Assembly (NCBI GenBank): GCA_903847405.1
Contig: CAINDP010000007.1
Location: 1 to 48,968 of the forward strand
Reading direction: 5' to 3'
Length of the DNA stretch: 48,968 nucleotides
From: an uncultured Myxococcales bacterium
Lineage (GTDB): Bacteria; Myxococcota_A; UBA9042; DTJE01
A program made the translations under genes and the position numbers. The notes beneath the pieces are model-generated. The model searched no databases. It worked only from the letters and a program-made list of their open reading frames with translations, and was not told where the DNA came from. Shown one piece after another: positions 1 to 36,111 of the stretch. Every line of letters begins with the position of its first letter. Within the stretch, counting starts at the first letter, position 1.

Positions 1-1536
1 CCAGTCGAAGGCCTGATCCTCCACCCAGACCGGCACGAACAGCGGGCGCGCGTGGCGGCCGGCCTTGTCGGCCAGTTCGAAGCGCCAGGCATGCTTGCCC
101 TTCGCCAGGCCCGCGTCGTCCACCGTGAACGTGCCCCCGTCGGCGTCCCAGGCCCCCGGGATCGCCACGCCGTTGCGGGTCAGCGTCGCCTGCGCCGCGT
201 CCAGTTCCGTGCGCGGGCGTCCGTACAGCGCCGACACCGTCATCGTCACGCGCCCGCCGGCCACCGTCGGGCCTTCCTTCAGGACCAGCACCGGGTTGTC
301 GCAGTCGGGCACGCGCAGCAGGGAATTGCGCGTCCCCCCCACGAATTTCGTGTAGGGGTTGCCCGGGTCCAGTTCCCACCGGTCCTGGCCGGCCTCGCGC
401 CAGTAGACCTTGTAGGCATAGTCCCCGGCCTGGACGTCCGGCAGGGCCAGTTCCCACCACGCTCCGACCTTCGCCAGCGGGTGGGACGTCGCGGACCAGC
501 CGTTGAACTCGCCCCGCAGGTACAGGGGACCCGCGGCCGCCATCTGGAAGCGCACCGTCACGCCGCAGGTGCGCGTCGCGATGGTTCCGGTGTCCTGGAC
601 GCACGCGTCCTGGCCGTCCAGCCGGTAGCCCGTGTCGCAATTGCACGAAAACGCGCTGCCGTCGGCGACGCAGGCCGTCCGGTGGGCGCCGGTCGGGCAG
701 GGGTTCGGGGTGCAGGGATCGATCGACGTGTCGGTGCAGGCGCCGTTCACGAAGGCATAGCCGTCGTCGCACAGGCACATCGCGGCCGTGCCGTCGGCCG
801 TGCAGACGGTGCGGTGCGGATCGTCGGTGCCGCAGGGGTTCGGGTCGCAGGGGTCCGTGGTTCCGGCGACGCACTTGATGCCGTCCCGGATCCAGCCGTC
901 GGCGCACGCATCGCAGGTGGTGCCCGTGTAGCCTTCGTGGCATGTGCAGGCCGCCTCGCCGCCCGCCGATCGGCAACTGCCGTGGATGCAGGGGTTCGGG
1001 TCGCACAGCGACTGCGTCACGCATCGCAGGCCCTCGGCGAAGTACCCGTCGGCGCACCGGTCGCACGTGTCGCCCGCGTAGCCCTGGTGGCAGGTGCAGG
1101 TCACCTGGCCGTCCACCCGGGCGCACAGCCCGAACACGCACGGGTCGCCTTCGCAGGGGTCGCCGGGGACGCACTGGCCGCCCCGGGGCATGAACCCGTC
1201 CGCGCACTGGTCGCACAGGGGCCCGCCGTAGCCGACGTCGCACCGGCAGACCGGCAGGGAGTTCACCGCCTGGCAGGCGCCGCGGGCGCAGGGATCCGCC
1301 TGGCAGGGATCGACCAGGCAGGTGGCGCCGGCCGCCAGGAAGCCTTCGTTGCACAGGCACACCGGGCTGGCGTCCCGCAGGGCGCAAATGCCGTTTCCGC
1401 CGCAGTCGATACCGCTGCAGCCGTCGCCGGACCCGGCCCCGTCGCAGCCGGAGGCCACGAGGGCCGCGGCCGCGATCAGTGCCAGGCCCAGCCGGGATGC
1501 GGTCCTGCCGCCAACACGGACCATGCGTTCGTTCAT
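1..1536 (-). CDS. Secreted EGF-repeat/CBM48 lipoprotein, probable amylase-type enzyme (C-terminus outside window)
   Basis: The frame stays open to the window edge, giving 512 residues with no stop. The N-terminus is a lipoprotein signal peptide with lipobox ASGC (Cys31). Residues 35-310 hold about six EGF-like, six-cysteine units with motifs such as GYxGxxCDxCADG. Residues 325-410 (LYLRGEFNGWS, YAYKVYW, ELDPGNPY) match the CBM48/AMPK glycogen-binding fold, followed by a beta-sandwich-like stretch to about 505 (PVWVE). In known secreted GH13 amylases this order precedes the catalytic barrel, so an alpha-glucan-degrading enzyme is inferred; no catalytic residue is visible here. Start ATG 1536 has AAGG 8 nt upstream, next to the GGGAGG that ends a palindromic repeat (1547-1628). 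A second in-frame ATG lies at 1524. Confidence 0.8.
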   Translation of the reverse strand, partial: MNERMVRVGGRTASRLGLALIAAAALVASGCDGAGSGDGCSGIDCGGNGICALRDASPVCLCNEGFLAAGATCLVDPCQADPCARGACQAVNSLPVCRCDVGYGGPLCDQCADGFMPRGGQCVPGDPCEGDPCVFGLCARVDGQVTCTCHQGYAGDTCDRCADGYFAEGLRCVTQSLCDPNPCIHGSCRSAGGEAACTCHEGYTGTTCDACADGWIRDGIKCVAGTTDPCDPNPCGTDDPHRTVCTADGTAAMCLCDDGYAFVNGACTDTSIDPCTPNPCPTGAHRTACVADGSAFSCNCDTGYRLDGQDACVQDTGTIATRTCGVTVRFQMAAAGPLYLRGEFNGWSATSHPLAKVGAWWELALPDVQAGDYAYKVYWREAGQDRWELDPGNPYTKFVGGTRNSLLRVPDCDNPVLVLKEGPTVAGGRVTMTVSALYGRPRTELDAAQATLTRNGVAIPGAWDADGGTFTVDDAGLAKGKHAWRFELADKAGRHARPLFVPVWVEDQAFDW

Positions 1537-1546
1537 GCGCCCCACC

Positions 1547-1628
1547 TTCCCTCCCGAGCGTGCAGGCGCAGGCGATGGGTTTCCGGAGGAAACTCTCGCC
1601 GGAGCCGAAGCCGACTCGGGACGATCCT
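1547..1628 (-). repeat. Palindromic element, copy 1 (upstream of the EGF/CBM48 lipoprotein)
   Basis: Full copy in minus orientation. The outer stem TCCCGAG/CTCGGGA is at 1621-1615 and 1558-1552, a middle stem is GGCGA/TCGCC, and the inner hairpin is GTTTCC-TCC-GGAAAC. The 5' flank is GGATCG and the 3' flank GGGAA. The inner loop is TCC here and TGC in the other full copies, so the difference falls in the loop and the stem is preserved. The GGGAGG end points at the start codon at 1536, 13 nt away. Confidence 0.85.
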
Positions 1629-23940: not shown

Positions 23941-24025
23941 TGGTGCGAGAGAGGGGACTCGAACCCCTAAGCCTTTCGGCGCTGGAACCTAAATCCAGGG
24001 CGTCTGCCAATTCCGCCACTCTCGC
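23941..24025 (-). tRNA. tRNA-Leu (anticodon UAG)
   Basis: An 85-nt class II tRNA with acceptor stem GCGAGAG/CTCTCGC, discriminator A and encoded CCA. The anticodon stem CTGGA/TCCAG closes the loop TTTAGGT, giving anticodon TAG. The long variable arm (GCGCCGAAAGGC) and the T arm with GTTCGAGTC are as expected for tRNA-Leu. It lies 55 bp downstream of the RelA/SpoT homologue on the same strand and has its own promoter. Confidence 0.97.
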
Positions 24026-24056: not shown

Positions 24057-24084
24057 AGGGTAGCCCGGCGACGCGGGGTGTCAA
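24057..24084 (-). promoter_or_regulatory. Promoter of tRNA-Leu
   Basis: On the minus strand a perfect TTGACA (24084-24079) is followed after 16 bp by TACCCT (24062-24057). The predicted start is about 25 nt before the tRNA 5' end. The TGA stop of the upstream RelA/SpoT homologue lies within this -35 box. Confidence 0.6.
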
Positions 24085-25733
24085 GGCGCGGATCCGTCGC
24101 TGGACCGCGGGAACAGGCGTCCCAGCAGGCCCCGTCCGACCTTTTCCAGCGCGCCGCGGGTGGCGCCCCGTCCGGCCTTCTTGTAGCGCCAGTGCGCGGC
24201 GTCGCCGTCGGGGCCGTCCGCCTGGAGGTGCATTTCGGGGGTGCGCAGTTGGACCTCGAACACCGGGCCCTCGGTGGCGCGCAGGTGGGTGTGCAGGCTC
24301 TGGTAGCCGTTGGGCTTGGGCCGCGCGATGTAGTCCTTGAAGGACAGCAGTTGCGGCTCGAACCGGCGGTGCAACGCGTCCAGGGCACGGTAGCAGTCCC
24401 CGGTCCCGGGCAGGATCAGCCGGAAGCCGAAGACGTCCTGGACCTGGTCCACCGCGATGTCGAGGGCCTGCATCTTGCGCCAGATGCCGGCCACGTGCTT
24501 GGCGCGGCGTTGCAGGTCCACGATGGACACCCCGGCCCCTTCCAGCGCCGCGCGGATCGCATGCTCGCGCAGGCCCAGCCACGCGGGCGGCGAGTCCGTG
24601 ATCGACGAAAGGTACGCCCCCACCCGCGCAAACGCCTCGGGGTTCAGCACGCGGAGGGCCGCGTCGTCCAGCCGCGAACGGAGGCCCAGATCGCCCAGGC
24701 GCTCCGCCATCAGGACGTCCTGCTCCCAGGTCACCCGGGCGTGCTCGACCACCTCGGGGTCGTCGGGGCTCTGGGACTCCAGCAGGCGCAGTTTGTACAT
24801 CAGGTACGTGCGTTCCATCTGGGATTCGGACTCGTCGTCCGGGCCGGTGTCGCCGGTCGCGCCGGGGCGTGCGGGCTGTGCCCCGGCGGCCGCCAGGGGG
24901 GGGACGATGGGCCCCGGGGTCGAGGCGGCGGCGTCGTGACGGGGGAAAGCACAGGCGACCCCGTCGGGATGCGGGACGTTCATTGCCCTGCGCTGGGCCT
25001 CGACCAGGCGGCGCACCGTCTGTTCGAGGTCGGACCCCAGCCGCCAGATCTCGTGGCCGAGGTACCGCCATTCAGGCGCCCCCTGGACGTCCTTGAGGAC
25101 GCCCAGGTAGCCGTGACCCATCTGGCGCAGGCCTTCCTGCAGGCGGTGCAGCGGGCGGGCGACCAGGAAGTGGTTGGCCACGACCAGCGAACCCACCACC
25201 GACAGCACCAGCAGCGCCATCTGCAGGAACCAACTGCGCCAGCGTCGCCGCGCCTCGTCGGGGAACGAGGGTGCGTCGGTCCAGACGGCCAGGGTTCCGG
25301 GATCGCGCCCCAGCACCGGCGAAAACACGGGCAACTGGGCATAGGGCACGCCGGTGGACGGGGCCTTGTCGAACCGCAGCAGCACCTCGGGATCCGAGGA
25401 CGCGACGATCTGGCCCAGGCCATCCACGAGGTCCAGGCGGACGGACGATCGGGCCCGGTTCAACACCTGTCGCGAAAACCGATCGATGCGGGCCTGGGCC
25501 GTTGCGAGGTCCCGGGTCGCCTCGATGTCCTCGACGAGGGAACCCATGAATTCGTCCAGCAGCATCTTGCGGTCGGTGCTGTCGTGGTCGATGTTCCGGT
25601 ACAACTGGACCAGGCTGAAGGCGCCGACGACGGTCGCGACGGTGACGGCGGTGACCAGGGCGAACCGCCATCCCAGGGGCACGCGCTCCAGGATGCGGCT
25701 GGGATTGGGCCAGCCTTCCGGGTGTCTCCGCAC
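24081..25733 (-). CDS. Transmembrane RelA/SpoT homologue: sensor-like module fused to (p)ppGpp synthetase domain
   Basis: Length is 550 residues from GTG 25733, with GGAGG 4 nt upstream. TM1 is about 24-44, an extracytoplasmic domain covers about 45-167, TM2 about 168-192, and a HAMP-like linker starts RPLHRLQEGL at 193. A Pro/Ala-rich linker (about 255-305) leads to a region like the one just before the synthetase in long RelA/SpoT proteins (AERLGDLGLRSRLDDAALRVLNPEAF). The synthetase domain (about 400-520) keeps the family motifs: AKHVAGIWRKMQ, Asp433 and Arg438, FKDYIARPKPNGYQSLH (466-481) and EVQLRT with Glu493. The HD hydrolase and the TGS/ACT regulatory domains are absent. I infer a membrane receptor that makes alarmone in response to an envelope signal. 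Divergent from the next gene, it has a deleted palindromic element just upstream of its start. Confidence 0.85.
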   Translation of the reverse strand: MRRHPEGWPNPSRILERVPLGWRFALVTAVTVATVVGAFSLVQLYRNIDHDSTDRKMLLDEFMGSLVEDIEATRDLATAQARIDRFSRQVLNRARSSVRLDLVDGLGQIVASSDPEVLLRFDKAPSTGVPYAQLPVFSPVLGRDPGTLAVWTDAPSFPDEARRRWRSWFLQMALLVLSVVGSLVVANHFLVARPLHRLQEGLRQMGHGYLGVLKDVQGAPEWRYLGHEIWRLGSDLEQTVRRLVEAQRRAMNVPHPDGVACAFPRHDAAASTPGPIVPPLAAAGAQPARPGATGDTGPDDESESQMERTYLMYKLRLLESQSPDDPEVVEHARVTWEQDVLMAERLGDLGLRSRLDDAALRVLNPEAFARVGAYLSSITDSPPAWLGLREHAIRAALEGAGVSIVDLQRRAKHVAGIWRKMQALDIAVDQVQDVFGFRLILPGTGDCYRALDALHRRFEPQLLSFKDYIARPKPNGYQSLHTHLRATEGPVFEVQLRTPEMHLQADGPDGDAAHWRYKKAGRGATRGALEKVGRGLLGRLFPRSSDGSAP

Positions 25734-25742
25734 TCGGCCTCC

Positions 25743-25780
25743 GTTCCTCCCGAAGCCGAAGCCGCCTCGGGACGGTCCAA
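25743..25780 (-). repeat. Palindromic element, internally deleted copy
   Basis: In minus orientation it keeps the 5' end TTGGACCG-TCCCGAG and the 3' end TCGGGAGGAAC but has only 25 bp between the outer arms' limits, versus 70 bp in full copies. A net 45 bp is missing from the middle. It sits 10-47 bp upstream of GTG 25733, with its GGGAGG directed at that start. The rest of the 252-bp divergent gap holds only the promoter listed at 25950. Confidence 0.75.
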
Positions 25781-28053: not shown

Positions 28054-30720
28054 ATGAAGAACATGTCGTTGGATTGTCCCGAGTCGGCTTCGTCTTCGGC
28101 GAGAGTTTCCTGCGGAAACCCATCGCCTGCGCCTGCGCGCTCGGGAGGAACCCTGGATTGTCCCGAGTCGGCTTCGTCTTCGGCGAGAGTTTCCTGCGGA
28201 AACCCATCGCCTGCGCCTGCGCGCTCGGGAGGAACACCGGTGATTGCCGTGGTGTTGGTCCTGCTGCTGTGCGCCTGCGGGGACAGCGGCGGTGGAGGGG
28301 TGACGGACAACGGCGGGAAGGACGTGATCCTTGCCGTGCCGGATCTGCCCGCCTTCACCCCCCCGGAGAAGAACGCGCTGGTCGGGCGCGTGCTGTCCTC
28401 GACCGGGCAGGGACTCGAGGGCGTGGCCGTGTCCGCCGACTCGGGCGGATCCGCCGTGACGAACTACGACGGGTACTACTTCATCGCCGACGTTCCGCCG
28501 CGGGACCGGATCGTCGTGTCCTTCCGGGAGGAGGGCTTCATCCCCGCCACCCGCTCGGGCGCCATGGTGCTGGATGGCCGTACCGTGGTCAACGCCGTGC
28601 TGCTGCCGCGGGTCGCGTCGAAGCCCCTGGGCGACGGCGCGGCCGTGTTCAGCCAGGGCACCGTGACCCTGGACAAGAGCGCCGTCGTGGACCTGAACGG
28701 CGTCCCCGTGACGGGCGACGTGCAGGTTCGCGCCACGCCCATTCCGACCCGGGGCGCGGGCGTCATCGCGGCGCCGGGCGACTTTTCCGCCACCACCCAG
28801 GCCGGCGCGACGGCGCAACTGGAAACCTACGCGATGTCGGACTACCAGGTGGTGGGCGAGGACGGCGCGGAACTGAAGATCGGCGCCGGGAAGACGGCCG
28901 ACATCGAAATGCTGCTGCCCGCGGACACGACGCTGGAGGAAGGCGACGTGTTGCCGGCGTGGCACTTCGATGACGTGACGGGACGCTGGATCGAGGAAGG
29001 GACGGGCACCGTCGTGAAGTACTCGGCAGACCCGACGCGGCTGGCGTTCAAGGCCACGGTCAGCCACTTTTCGACCTGGAACTGCGACAAGACCATGGAA
29101 ACGACCTGCATCTCGGGCACCGTGAAGCTGTGCGACGGGACGCCCGCACCGTCGGCCGACCTGTCGGCGCAGGGGGTTTCGTACGACGGTACCTCGGGGG
29201 GATTCGCGGGCCTGGACGGGACGTTCTGCGTCGCCGCCAAGACGGGTGCGACGGTGACGCTGGCCGCGGCCTCCGGGTACGGCGCCGCGCGCCTGGTGGC
29301 CGTGACCACGGTGCAGACGGGAACCGCCGCGTCGTCCTGCCCGGGGCCCTGCACCCAGGCGGACATCGTGCTTCCGTGCAGCCCGAAGGATTCGACGGTG
29401 GACTGCGACGACACGTGGTTCGCGGGATGCACCTCCTGCGTGCAGGGGCGCGTCGTGGACAAGGACGGGAATCCCCGGCCGGCCGTCCTGAAGGCGGCCG
29501 CCGGCAACAGCACGTTCACGGTCGTGACGGACCAGGCCGGGCACTACTGCGCGCCGGCCGCCAAGGGGGCGCTGGTGACGATCACCGCCAGCGGGCCCAG
29601 CGGGGAAACCGGGGCGATCACCACCGTGCCGCAGAACGCCGGCCAGTGTCCGGACTGCGAAACGGCGCCGGATCTGACGCTGAACGACGCGGTCCAGACG
29701 GGCACCGAAGGTCTCGACTTCGCGACGTGTCCGACGGACCTCGGCGGGCTGGCGTTGACCGGCCTGGTGGCCAACGGCAGCGATCCGCGCCTGGCGAAGA
29801 TCGACGGTGGATGGGTGACGCTGATCGACCGCGGGGCCACCATGGAAACGGGACGCTGGCAGCTGGCGATCAGCCTGGTGTCGTCGAAGTCCGTGGGCAT
29901 CGCGGGCGCCCCGATCGCGACGGTGGACCTGTACCTGGACGCGGCGCCGACGGCCGCGGCCACCTTTGACGTCGCCGACGGCGAGGGGTACGTGGTCCAG
30001 GGGAGCGCATGGTCGGCCGCCGGGTCGCTGACCGGCCTGGGCGGTGAAACCTACCAGTTGCAGGGCGGCACCAGTTCGCCGATCGGGTCGGGCCAGATCC
30101 GCTTTGACGGCGGGTTCGCGAACGTGGGTGACCCGGTGAAGGGCTCGTTCGTGCTGTCGCTGGTGCCGGGCTGCGCCCCGAAGGGCGCCTCGCTGAACCT
30201 CAAGGGGACGTTCGACACGACGGTGCATGCGTCGCCCAGCACGGTGCCCGACTTCTCGGGGGGCGTCGACTCGCCGGCGTTCAAGTACTGGAAGTGCTCG
30301 ATGTTCGACCTGTTCGTGACGGTCACGACGATGCAGTACTTCGAGGGGGCCATCCAGATGACCGTCGACGGCGTCATGGCCGCCACGGAAGCGAACCCGC
30401 TGGATACCGCGAAGTACGAATGGGAGCAGGACTCCCTGACGCTGGCCTTCTACGGCAAGGACACCACGCTGAGCCTGTCCGTGGAGCATCCGGTGGCGGG
30501 GGAGAACCTGGTGACCTACGGCACGCTGTTCTTCGCCGATTCGGAGTGCTACTACCAGCCCGCGGGCGGCAAGGTGGTCCTGGTTGCGTTCAACGGGGCC
30601 GAAACGGACCGGTGGCTGACCGGCACGTTCGACATCCAGTTCACGGCGGCCGCCGGATCCGTGGGGAACTGTCCGGACCGCCTGGTCGAAGGACAGTTCG
30701 GCGCGCCGGTGTGCCGCTAG
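28054..30720 (+). CDS. Large lipoprotein with carboxypeptidase-regulatory-like domains; signal peptide interrupted by two repeat copies
   Basis: Length is 888 residues from ATG 28054 (AAGGA 5 nt upstream). The predicted signal peptide is split: MKNMS, then 56 residues from two palindromic-element copies, then a hydrophobic stretch and lipobox LCAC. An alternative GTG 28240 has GGGAGG 7 nt upstream, but its product would lack a positive n-region (MIAVVLVLLLCAC). The body has a carboxypeptidase-regulatory-like beta-sandwich (about 106-165, GLEGVAVSADSGG, TNYDGYYFIADVP), then a FAM171/ZU5-like region ending in SHFSTWNCDK (about 345-355), and a second such beta-sandwich (about 465-520). The C-terminal 300 residues are beta-rich and unassigned. 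It probably acts at the outer surface; enzyme motifs are absent. Confidence 0.75.
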   Translation: MKNMSLDCPESASSSARVSCGNPSPAPARSGGTLDCPESASSSARVSCGNPSPAPARSGGTPVIAVVLVLLLCACGDSGGGGVTDNGGKDVILAVPDLPAFTPPEKNALVGRVLSSTGQGLEGVAVSADSGGSAVTNYDGYYFIADVPPRDRIVVSFREEGFIPATRSGAMVLDGRTVVNAVLLPRVASKPLGDGAAVFSQGTVTLDKSAVVDLNGVPVTGDVQVRATPIPTRGAGVIAAPGDFSATTQAGATAQLETYAMSDYQVVGEDGAELKIGAGKTADIEMLLPADTTLEEGDVLPAWHFDDVTGRWIEEGTGTVVKYSADPTRLAFKATVSHFSTWNCDKTMETTCISGTVKLCDGTPAPSADLSAQGVSYDGTSGGFAGLDGTFCVAAKTGATVTLAAASGYGAARLVAVTTVQTGTAASSCPGPCTQADIVLPCSPKDSTVDCDDTWFAGCTSCVQGRVVDKDGNPRPAVLKAAAGNSTFTVVTDQAGHYCAPAAKGALVTITASGPSGETGAITTVPQNAGQCPDCETAPDLTLNDAVQTGTEGLDFATCPTDLGGLALTGLVANGSDPRLAKIDGGWVTLIDRGATMETGRWQLAISLVSSKSVGIAGAPIATVDLYLDAAPTAAATFDVADGEGYVVQGSAWSAAGSLTGLGGETYQLQGGTSSPIGSGQIRFDGGFANVGDPVKGSFVLSLVPGCAPKGASLNLKGTFDTTVHASPSTVPDFSGGVDSPAFKYWKCSMFDLFVTVTTMQYFEGAIQMTVDGVMAATEANPLDTAKYEWEQDSLTLAFYGKDTTLSLSVEHPVAGENLVTYGTLFFADSECYYQPAGGKVVLVAFNGAETDRWLTGTFDIQFTAAAGSVGNCPDRLVEGQFGAPVCR
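28069..28151 (+). repeat. Palindromic element, first of two tandem in-frame copies
   Basis: Full 83-bp copy: TTGGATTG flank, outer stem TCCCGAG (28077-28083) and CTCGGGA (28140-28146), middle stem GGCGA/TCGCC, inner hairpin GTTTCC-TGC-GGAAAC, and GGAAC tail. It is read in frame with the lipoprotein as LDCPESASSSARVSCG plus a Pro/Ala-rich tail. The period to the next copy is 84 bp, exactly 28 codons. Confidence 0.92.
28154..28235 (+). repeat. Palindromic element, second tandem copy
   Basis: Core 28161-28230 is identical to the first copy in outer, middle and inner stems. It ends in GGGAGG 7 nt before GTG 28240. Identity between the copies indicates recent duplication. Confidence 0.92.
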
Positions 30721-35373: not shown

Positions 35374-36111
35374 ATGTTCCTGGGCCATTTCGCCATGGCG
35401 TTCGCGGCGAAGGCGGCGGCGCCGAAGACCTCCCTGGGCACCACCCTGCTGGCGGCCCAGGCGGCGGACCTGCTGTGGCCGACCCTGCTGCTGCTGGGCG
35501 TGGAACGGGCCCGGATCCAGGAGGGGATCACGAAGGTGATTCCCCTGGACCTGGAGTACTACCCCTTTTCCCACAGCCTGCTGGCGGCGGTCCTCCTGGG
35601 CGCCCTGATCGGAGGCGTCCACCTCCTCTTTGGATCGTCCCGAGTCGGCTTCGGCTCCGGCGAGAGTTTCCTGCGGAAACCCGTCGCCTGCGCCTGCGCG
35701 CTCGGGAGGAACAACCGACGCGATGTCCGGGGGGCCGTCGTCCTGGGCCTGGCCGTCCTCAGCCACTGGGTCCTGGACGCGGTGTCCCACCGTCCGGACA
35801 TGCCGCTGGCGCCGGGAATCGACCTCCGGGTCGGCCTGGGGCTGTGGAACTCGGTGGAAGGAACGGTCGTGACGGAACTGGTCCTGTTCGCGGCCGGCGT
35901 CGGCCTGTACCTGTGGCGCACGACGGCGCGCGACGGGATCGGGCGGTGGGCCCTGTGGGCGCTGCTGGCGATCCTGGGGGGCCTCTTCGCGGGGAACATT
36001 GCCGGCGTGCCGCCGCCGAACATGGACGCCGTCGCCTGGGCAGGCCAGGCCCTGTGGCTGTTCGTCGCTTGGGCGTGGTGGATCGACCGGCACCGTGACG
36101 TCACGCGGTGA
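35374..36111 (+). CDS. YdjM-like inner-membrane protein (putative metal-dependent hydrolase family), carrying a palindromic element
   Basis: Length is 245 residues; GGGAGG lies 7 nt before ATG 35374, 29 bp after the double adk. Motifs typical of the YdjM family are GHFAMAFAAK at the start, the FSHSLL motif, and LSHWVLDAVSHRPDMP with two conserved His and an Asp. About five membrane segments are seen. Residues 86-113 are encoded by a full palindromic element read as SSRVGFGSGESFLRKP and a Cys/Ala tail; this falls in the loop between predicted TM segments. Function of the family is not established. The stop codon is 1 bp before hairpin repeat B. Confidence 0.75.
   Translation: MFLGHFAMAFAAKAAAPKTSLGTTLLAAQAADLLWPTLLLLGVERARIQEGITKVIPLDLEYYPFSHSLLAAVLLGALIGGVHLLFGSSRVGFGSGESFLRKPVACACALGRNNRRDVRGAVVLGLAVLSHWVLDAVSHRPDMPLAPGIDLRVGLGLWNSVEGTVVTELVLFAAGVGLYLWRTTARDGIGRWALWALLAILGGLFAGNIAGVPPPNMDAVAWAGQALWLFVAWAWWIDRHRDVTR
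35630..35712 (+). repeat. Palindromic element inside the YdjM-like coding region
   Basis: Full copy with 5' flank TTGGATCG, outer stem TCCCGAG (35638-35644) and CTCGGGA (35701-35707), middle GGCGA/TCGCC, inner GTTTCC-TGC-GGAAAC, and tail GGAAC. It differs from the lipoprotein copies at a few unpaired or wobble-like positions and is read in a different frame (SRVGFGSGESFL instead of DCPESASSSARV). Confidence 0.92.

Follow-up and report, generated by a model that had tools for sequence, protein, structure and literature searches.

An uncultured Myxococcales bacterium carries what is most probably a small non-autonomous mobile palindrome of 81-84 bp, restricted to one genus and lately active in this genome. 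By lifestyle the element is like the Rickettsia palindromic elements (RPEs), being a long stem-loop palindrome that is dispersed and frequently inserted in frame, with empty sites in relatives. New here is the reading-frame bias of the copies inside genes, 21/25 of which in one set and 7/7 in another use two of the six possible frames. The window (the whole stretch of 48,968 nucleotides that was analysed) is part of contig 7 of assembly G000 (5.65 Mb, 273 contigs), and comparisons were drawn with a sister species (G001) and a third species (G002), all three of one genus.

The sequence-only reading had described an element of about 83 bp in four full copies and one deleted copy, with its outer, middle and inner stems kept and a loop of TGC or TCC. 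Both claims held: all the copies were located, and the stems are exact in 4/4 full copies, three with the loop TGC and one with TCC. The pattern TCCCGAG-N40..70-CTCGGGA matches four times in the window, against 0.02 matches expected by chance, and four or more matches arose in 0/100 shuffles. The copies, the stems of copy 1 and the interrupted genes are as follows.

1549..1628, minus strand: full copy 4, divergent genes on either side, loop TCC (97.4 bits)
25745..25779, minus strand: deleted copy, TGGACCGTCCCGAGGCGGCTTCGGCTTCGGGAGGA, middle gone and both ends retained
28054..30720, plus strand: lipoprotein gene with carboxypeptidase-regulatory-like domains, copies 1 and 2 in its signal peptide
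28070..28152, plus strand: full copy 1, first of a head-to-tail pair of period 84 (102.5 bits, E 6.9e-20)
28077..28146, plus strand: outer stem TCCCGAG/CTCGGGA of copy 1, the outermost pair being T-A, G-C, C-G or A-T among copies
28098..28127, plus strand: middle stem GGCGA/TCGCC around the apical hairpin GTTTCC-TGC-GGAAAC, copy 1
28154..28235, plus strand: full copy 2, second of the pair, the same as copy 1 across 82 shared bases
35374..36111, plus strand: YdjM-like membrane protein gene, lengthened in frame by 28 codons (GSSRVGFGSGESFLRKPVACACALGRNN) through copy 3
35631..35712, plus strand: full copy 3, within a gene (105.1 bits)

The deleted copy lies immediately upstream of the minus-strand gene 24081-25733. 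The sole Rfam match in the window is a tRNA gene at 23944-24025 on the minus strand.

Orthologues in the sister species expose both in-gene sites of the window as insertions. The G001 orthologue of the YdjM-like protein (L160) lacks exactly 28 residues, and the Pfam YdjM match is just under the cut-off. The product of 28054..30720 reads MKNMS, the insert and then PVIAVVLVLLLCACG, such that the tandem pair contributes 56 in-frame codons after codon 5, while the G001 orthologue (L236) begins MNNTFTWCAFLCAALLSACG and is of equal length minus the insert. Gene calls had left this pair (28070-28235) in intergenic DNA, and only the orthologue reveals an N-terminal in-frame insert; a comparable N-terminal insertion is seen at L015 relative to L251. 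Our in-gene counts are for this reason minimal.

For the wider set we collected 133 sequences by pattern, one or two of them spurious, and called genes with a codon log-odds model trained on the element loci. Roughly a quarter of the copies lie within genes, and most are intergenic. Our strict in-gene set (n=25) requires at least 20 coding residues on each side and leaves out tandem and C-terminal cases (n=28 before their removal). Empty sites, with orthologues taken from G001, G002 or G000, were compared in about 20 genes and show the in-gene copies to be clean insertions: where the element sits, most orthologues fall short by 27 or 28 residues, and in the best-aligned DNA of two relatives the gaps are net 81 or 84 bp. 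With the insert present, transketolase, RecD2 and TruB still score above NCBIfam cut-offs. The other interrupted genes include those for a TatD-type nuclease, an error-prone DNA polymerase, argininosuccinate synthase, endonuclease III (the copy lies in its C-terminal Cys-rich region) and a LigA-like protein, identified by motif, whose insert lies just ahead of the EPKFDG motif. AlphaFold models of the G001 transketolase (three sequences; mean pLDDT 37) were uninformative. The junction in that protein and the peptides of the two dominant frames are given below.

Transketolase of G001, insert junction: ...GRMLAA, then RMLPERAGVGDGFPK...
Frame A peptide: PESASAPARVSCGNPSPAPARS
Frame A' peptide: PPERAGAGDGFPQETLAGAEADSG

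In the strict set frames A and A' together account for 21 copies and B or B' for 4/25, and the Arg-rich frames C or C' are not used at all (0/25); before tandem and C-terminal cases were removed, the share of A and A' was 24/28. This excess has p 3e-7 against an expectation of one third and p 4e-9 against a left-flank target-preference model derived from intergenic copies. Since that model predicts just 27% for A + A', and 52% for B + B', target choice cannot account for the bias. In a second set of 38 previously unused copies, all seven in-gene copies were again in A or A'. Peptides A and A' are abundant in Gly, Pro, Ser and Ala, have few bulky hydrophobic residues and are weakly charged. The coding fraction of the window is ~94%, so that random insertion would be expected mostly in genes, yet genes hold no more than about a quarter of the copies. 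No broken frames were found when same-strand neighbour pairs closely flanking copies were compared with orthologues; wherever both orthologues could be located, the pairs were ordinary neighbours and never one split gene. The simplest reading of the frame bias, and to us a probable one although it is inferred from sequence alone, is survival of harmless peptides only, the inserts being translated.

The element had further been said to contain no stop codon in any of the six frames and to look like a selfish element under selection not to break genes. The openness holds over the core of the four window copies and fails genome-wide, where 39/115 copies have at least one closed frame. Nor is it a telling feature: six open frames are also found in 23% of the window's 83-bp stretches, and among dinucleotide shuffles of the consensus the share is 15%. 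We therefore rejected openness, common in this 70% GC DNA, as evidence for selection. Stop trinucleotides number 46 compared with 76 under random placement of the same mutations, a test that cannot tell constraint on the stems apart from selection against stops. Nothing clearly indicates that the element itself evolved to be stop-free. The claim of selection held in part, as the selection that is visible acts, in all likelihood, on each insertion: lengths are multiples of three, no broken genes were found and two frames are strongly preferred.

The unit has the left end TGGA and a right end of about GGAGGAACA, and its predicted fold is a single long imperfect hairpin made up of the outer stem, stems of 2, 3 and 5 bp and a 6-bp apical hairpin, with two conserved symmetrical internal loops (TNC opposite TNC). 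RNA folding beats shuffles by 2.1 to 3.6 standard deviations and DNA folding by 1.5 to 2.2. By mutual information the strongest column pairs are 14-83 (T-A, G-C, C-G, A-T) and 24-75 (G-C, A-T), and over the whole structure 50 cells are altered on both sides compared with 14.7 in shuffles and at most 22 in sliding controls. An exception is the central 3-bp stem, in which about half of the sampled copies have a broken middle pair, mostly through G-to-T. An older-looking subfamily of 22 copies has the apical stem GATTGC/GCAATC instead of GTTTCC/GGAAAC, and further compensated apical stems are GATCGC/GCGATC, GTTTGC/GCAAAC and GTTTTC/GAAAAC. As the stems covary and the mismatched loops remain unchanged, the folded shape, loops included, is the conserved thing. 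The covariation and the rewritten apical stem make it likely that selection acts on a folded strand. Template-switch repair of imperfect palindromes might supply part of the covariation; it is unlikely to be the whole story, because repair would tend to erase the conserved mismatched loops. Wobble pairs hinted at the minus strand as the folding strand (31 vs 12 cells, p 0.005), an idea that we dropped since the count by pair type (16 vs 9) is not significant.

Some copies depart from this anatomy. At L007 (2619-2713), L111, L113 and L136 a variant has about 15 added right-arm bases (CCCTTCGCCTGAAGGCTCGGC), possibly a small extra hairpin; the L113 variant adds 33 codons to a dehydrogenase-like gene. 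At L110 (~1430-1511, minus strand) GGCTCC is repeated several times in the left arm, forming a small slippage array inside the copy.

A weak AT-leaning motif (~TCAT) stands before the left end, which is sharp, and the right end is ragged, with head-to-tail arrays of periods 78-84. No target-site duplication was detected in flank statistics (best z 3.5 among ~600 column-pair comparisons) or at the empty sites of relatives. At L038, L059 and L080 a second unit, truncated or diverged, starts in the right flank of the copy, from which we infer that arrays decay in place; the L080 array adds net 87 bp to a gene.

With up to 3 mismatches allowed, the core pattern occurs 85 times in G000 and the reversed-pattern control not once. 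A covariance model built on 56 copies finds at least 124 copies in G000, at least 120 in G001 and one in G002, the first two figures being lower bounds since 150 candidates were scored per genome; it finds 0 copies in 49 other genomes of the same class. Searched with a stricter exact core pattern, one genome per species across 84,980 species, the only matches are in CAIOFV01 (uncultured Myxococcales bacterium isolate MJ-time_bin-5834), which we take to be the sister species G001. The phages, plasmids and viral contigs searched gave zero matches. Copies or arrays stand at the ends of G000 contigs 45, 182, 194 and 205 and of G001 contigs 10, 122, 135 and 152; the assembly thus breaks at the repeat, and the real copy number is probably above the count. 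As for age, 13/74 G000 copies are identical to some dispersed copy and 42/74 are within 2 nt of one, compared with 0/41 in G001, and this copy-to-copy identity points with good probability to recent activity in G000 and older activity in G001. The L131 site is filled in G001 and empty in G002, and in the G000 orthologue a short stretch (TPERGG...) looks like what is left, in frame, of the element's right end, so that this insertion is possibly older than the G000/G001 split.

Among the families searched (only Y1, RVT_1 and IS110), neither a RAYT nor any other transposase could be connected with the element, and no transposase gene was seen between like ends. G000 has a single Y1 (RAYT-like) gene of 221 aa (L146, 1300-2200, contig 82) with a sub-threshold REP_Tyr_transpos match. 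It sits between inverted repeats AAAGTGGGACAGTCACCC and GGGTGACTGTCCCACTTT that are unrelated to the element, and was rejected as the mobiliser on account of these terminal repeats of its own and the lack of a convincing element match nearby; the Y1 search found no match in G001 (at least 120 copies) or in G002. Reverse transcriptase was rejected as well, with none in G000, one partial gene in G001 and five in the single-copy G002 (contigs 2, 5, 12, 46 and 68), as was IS110, with one gene in G000 that has no adjoining element and none in G001. A composite transposon was considered and rejected at L007, where the open reading frame between inverted copies encodes a membrane-type protein without transposase features by eye. 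We note that the absence of a gene is weak evidence because the genomes are drafts, 92 to 97% complete.

Taken together, dispersal into intergenic DNA and genes, the lack of target-site duplication, the conserved fold and the frame sieve are established, and the likely overall explanation is a selfish non-autonomous mobile palindrome moved in trans, whose in-gene copies are filtered by the host. In the mechanism that we infer, the hairpin, as single-stranded DNA or RNA, would be recognised by an unidentified enzyme acting in trans; the conserved mismatched internal loops may serve as recognition features, by analogy with E. coli REP; and the element would be joined at sites following the short AT-leaning motif (~TCAT). 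The element would be selfish, and the in-gene pattern would reflect host purifying selection sieving random insertions and not a coding function. That a folded strand is the substrate is an inference, resting on covariation and analogy alone with no assay. The ragged right end (periods 78-84) counts against the overall explanation, being unlike the cleanly cut end of a transposon, as does the lack of an identified mobilising enzyme.

One rival to this explanation is that the element is a RAYT substrate, a REPIN-like element outside the GTAG class. An imperfect hairpin with conserved mismatches, the lack of target-site duplication and a left-flank preference all fit HUH enzymes working on single-stranded DNA; TnpA activity depends on mismatches in the stem of E. 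coli REP (PMC8266576); and G000, the bearer of young copies, does have one Y1 gene with its sub-threshold match. Against this, inverted repeats of its own (GTGGGACAGTCACCC) enclose that gene and nearby there is no convincing match to the model, a Y1 match is absent from both G001, despite its abundant copies, and G002, and the consensus has no terminal GTAG tag; we consider this rival unlikely.

The remaining alternatives fare worse. The byp elements of yeast mitochondria are hairpins bypassed by the ribosome, and structured hairpins in many conserved genes, such as those for endonuclease III and the LigA-like protein, could suggest that the inserts are likewise bypassed, or cut from the mRNA, and hence remain untranslated. 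Bypass or removal would accept any length and frame, whereas the observed copies are in frame, split no genes and are dominated by two of six frames, and a bias in peptide chemistry makes sense only if the peptide is made; we hold this to be very improbable. Nearly as hard to credit is a regulatory RNA or 5'-UTR element in place of selfish DNA. In its favour, intergenic copies are in the majority and few lie between convergent genes, the stem is conserved, and the right end GGGAGGAAC is Shine-Dalgarno-like and stands just ahead of several start codons. However, the neighbouring genes are unrelated, sites are empty in the sister species, copies lie in either orientation, as tandem arrays and in coding sequence, near-identical copies are dispersed, and no intact copies, as a regulatory role would lead one to expect, were found at orthologous positions in both species. 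Finally, were the repeat simply the coding DNA of a conserved protein domain or linker, that could explain the ~quarter of copies within open reading frames, but four different frames, both strands and unrelated proteins are used, intergenic copies have the same stems, and orthologues without the insert refute it, so this possibility is all but ruled out.

Among known systems RPEs are the nearest by lifestyle. According to reviews, these palindromes measure 105-150 bp and occur as in-frame fusions in conserved genes of Rickettsia, and for guanylate kinase both translation and activity have been demonstrated; for RPEs and Wolbachia palindromic repeats, which like our element are dispersed hairpins found both in intergenic DNA and in frame in conserved genes, target-site duplication is not established (PMC2229807, PMC10969869). 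Unlike RPEs, the element is shorter (81-84 vs 105-150 bp) and belongs to another phylum and a larger, high-GC genome; a sequence relation was not detected, with the caveat that only pattern and covariance searches were run and no RPE sequence was aligned. For the element, sister-species empty sites, covariation and reading-frame bias have been measured. The proposed resemblance to RPEs, with a different sequence and host, thus held, borne out by the ~20 empty-site genes, the genome census and the distribution test. Of the checks that the sequence-only reading named, further copies in the genome were found (at least 124 in G000 and at least 120 in G001), which removes the refutation that there would be none; orthologues gave empty sites of net 81 or 84 bp without target-site duplication; the RNA fold surpassed shuffles by 2.1 to 3.6 standard deviations; the search for a RAYT or transposase gave none linkable to the element; and refutation by a single conserved protein domain was not met, the orthologues being empty and the proteins unrelated.

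GTAG REP/REPIN sequences share with the element many copies and an imperfect hairpin with conserved mismatches. The element differs in having no terminal GTAG (column composition, 115 copies), in being longer than REP, in lacking a cognate RAYT flanked by the repeat and, unlike those extragenic repeats, in residing in genes (25 strict copies in the first set and 7 in the second). CGTC-tagged palindromic repeats, which take in RPE-4 and RPE-6, are also palindromic and reported without a dedicated transposase (PMC3733652), and the young G000 subfamily reads ATCGTCCCGAG. Yet CGTC is present in 46/74 G000 but only 3/41 G001 copies, its T is in our element the covarying outermost stem base, so that there is no unpaired tag, and there is no unpaired CCA tail on that strand. 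Like MITEs (Correia/NEMIS, ERIC, RUP), some of which yield in-frame fusions in bacteria (PMC2229807), the element is short, non-autonomous, stem-looped and dispersed; unlike them, it has no target-site duplication and no TA ends, and an autonomous partner was not found. No myxobacterial or similar in-frame palindrome appeared in the open literature searched, subscription journals being outside its scope.

Selfish palindromes in protein genes have mostly been regarded as an oddity of the obligate intracellular bacteria Rickettsia and Wolbachia. The same in-gene lifestyle is now seen in two uncultured myxobacteria with large GC-rich genomes, each with at least 120 copies, and because sister genomes supply empty sites, the insertion rules, the unit length and the survival filters become measurable. 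The frame bias is a natural experiment on which protein insertions of 27-28 residues are tolerated, and the long-open question of how such palindromes move now has a concrete target in the missing enzyme. A bolder reading, which on present evidence is rather less likely than not, is that this is a protein-inserting palindrome family outside the Rickettsiales whose folded single strand is moved by a kind of enzyme not yet linked to such repeats. If that were true, each genome, with its tens of natural in-frame insertions, would amount to an insertion scan of conserved proteins and a source of new protein segments.
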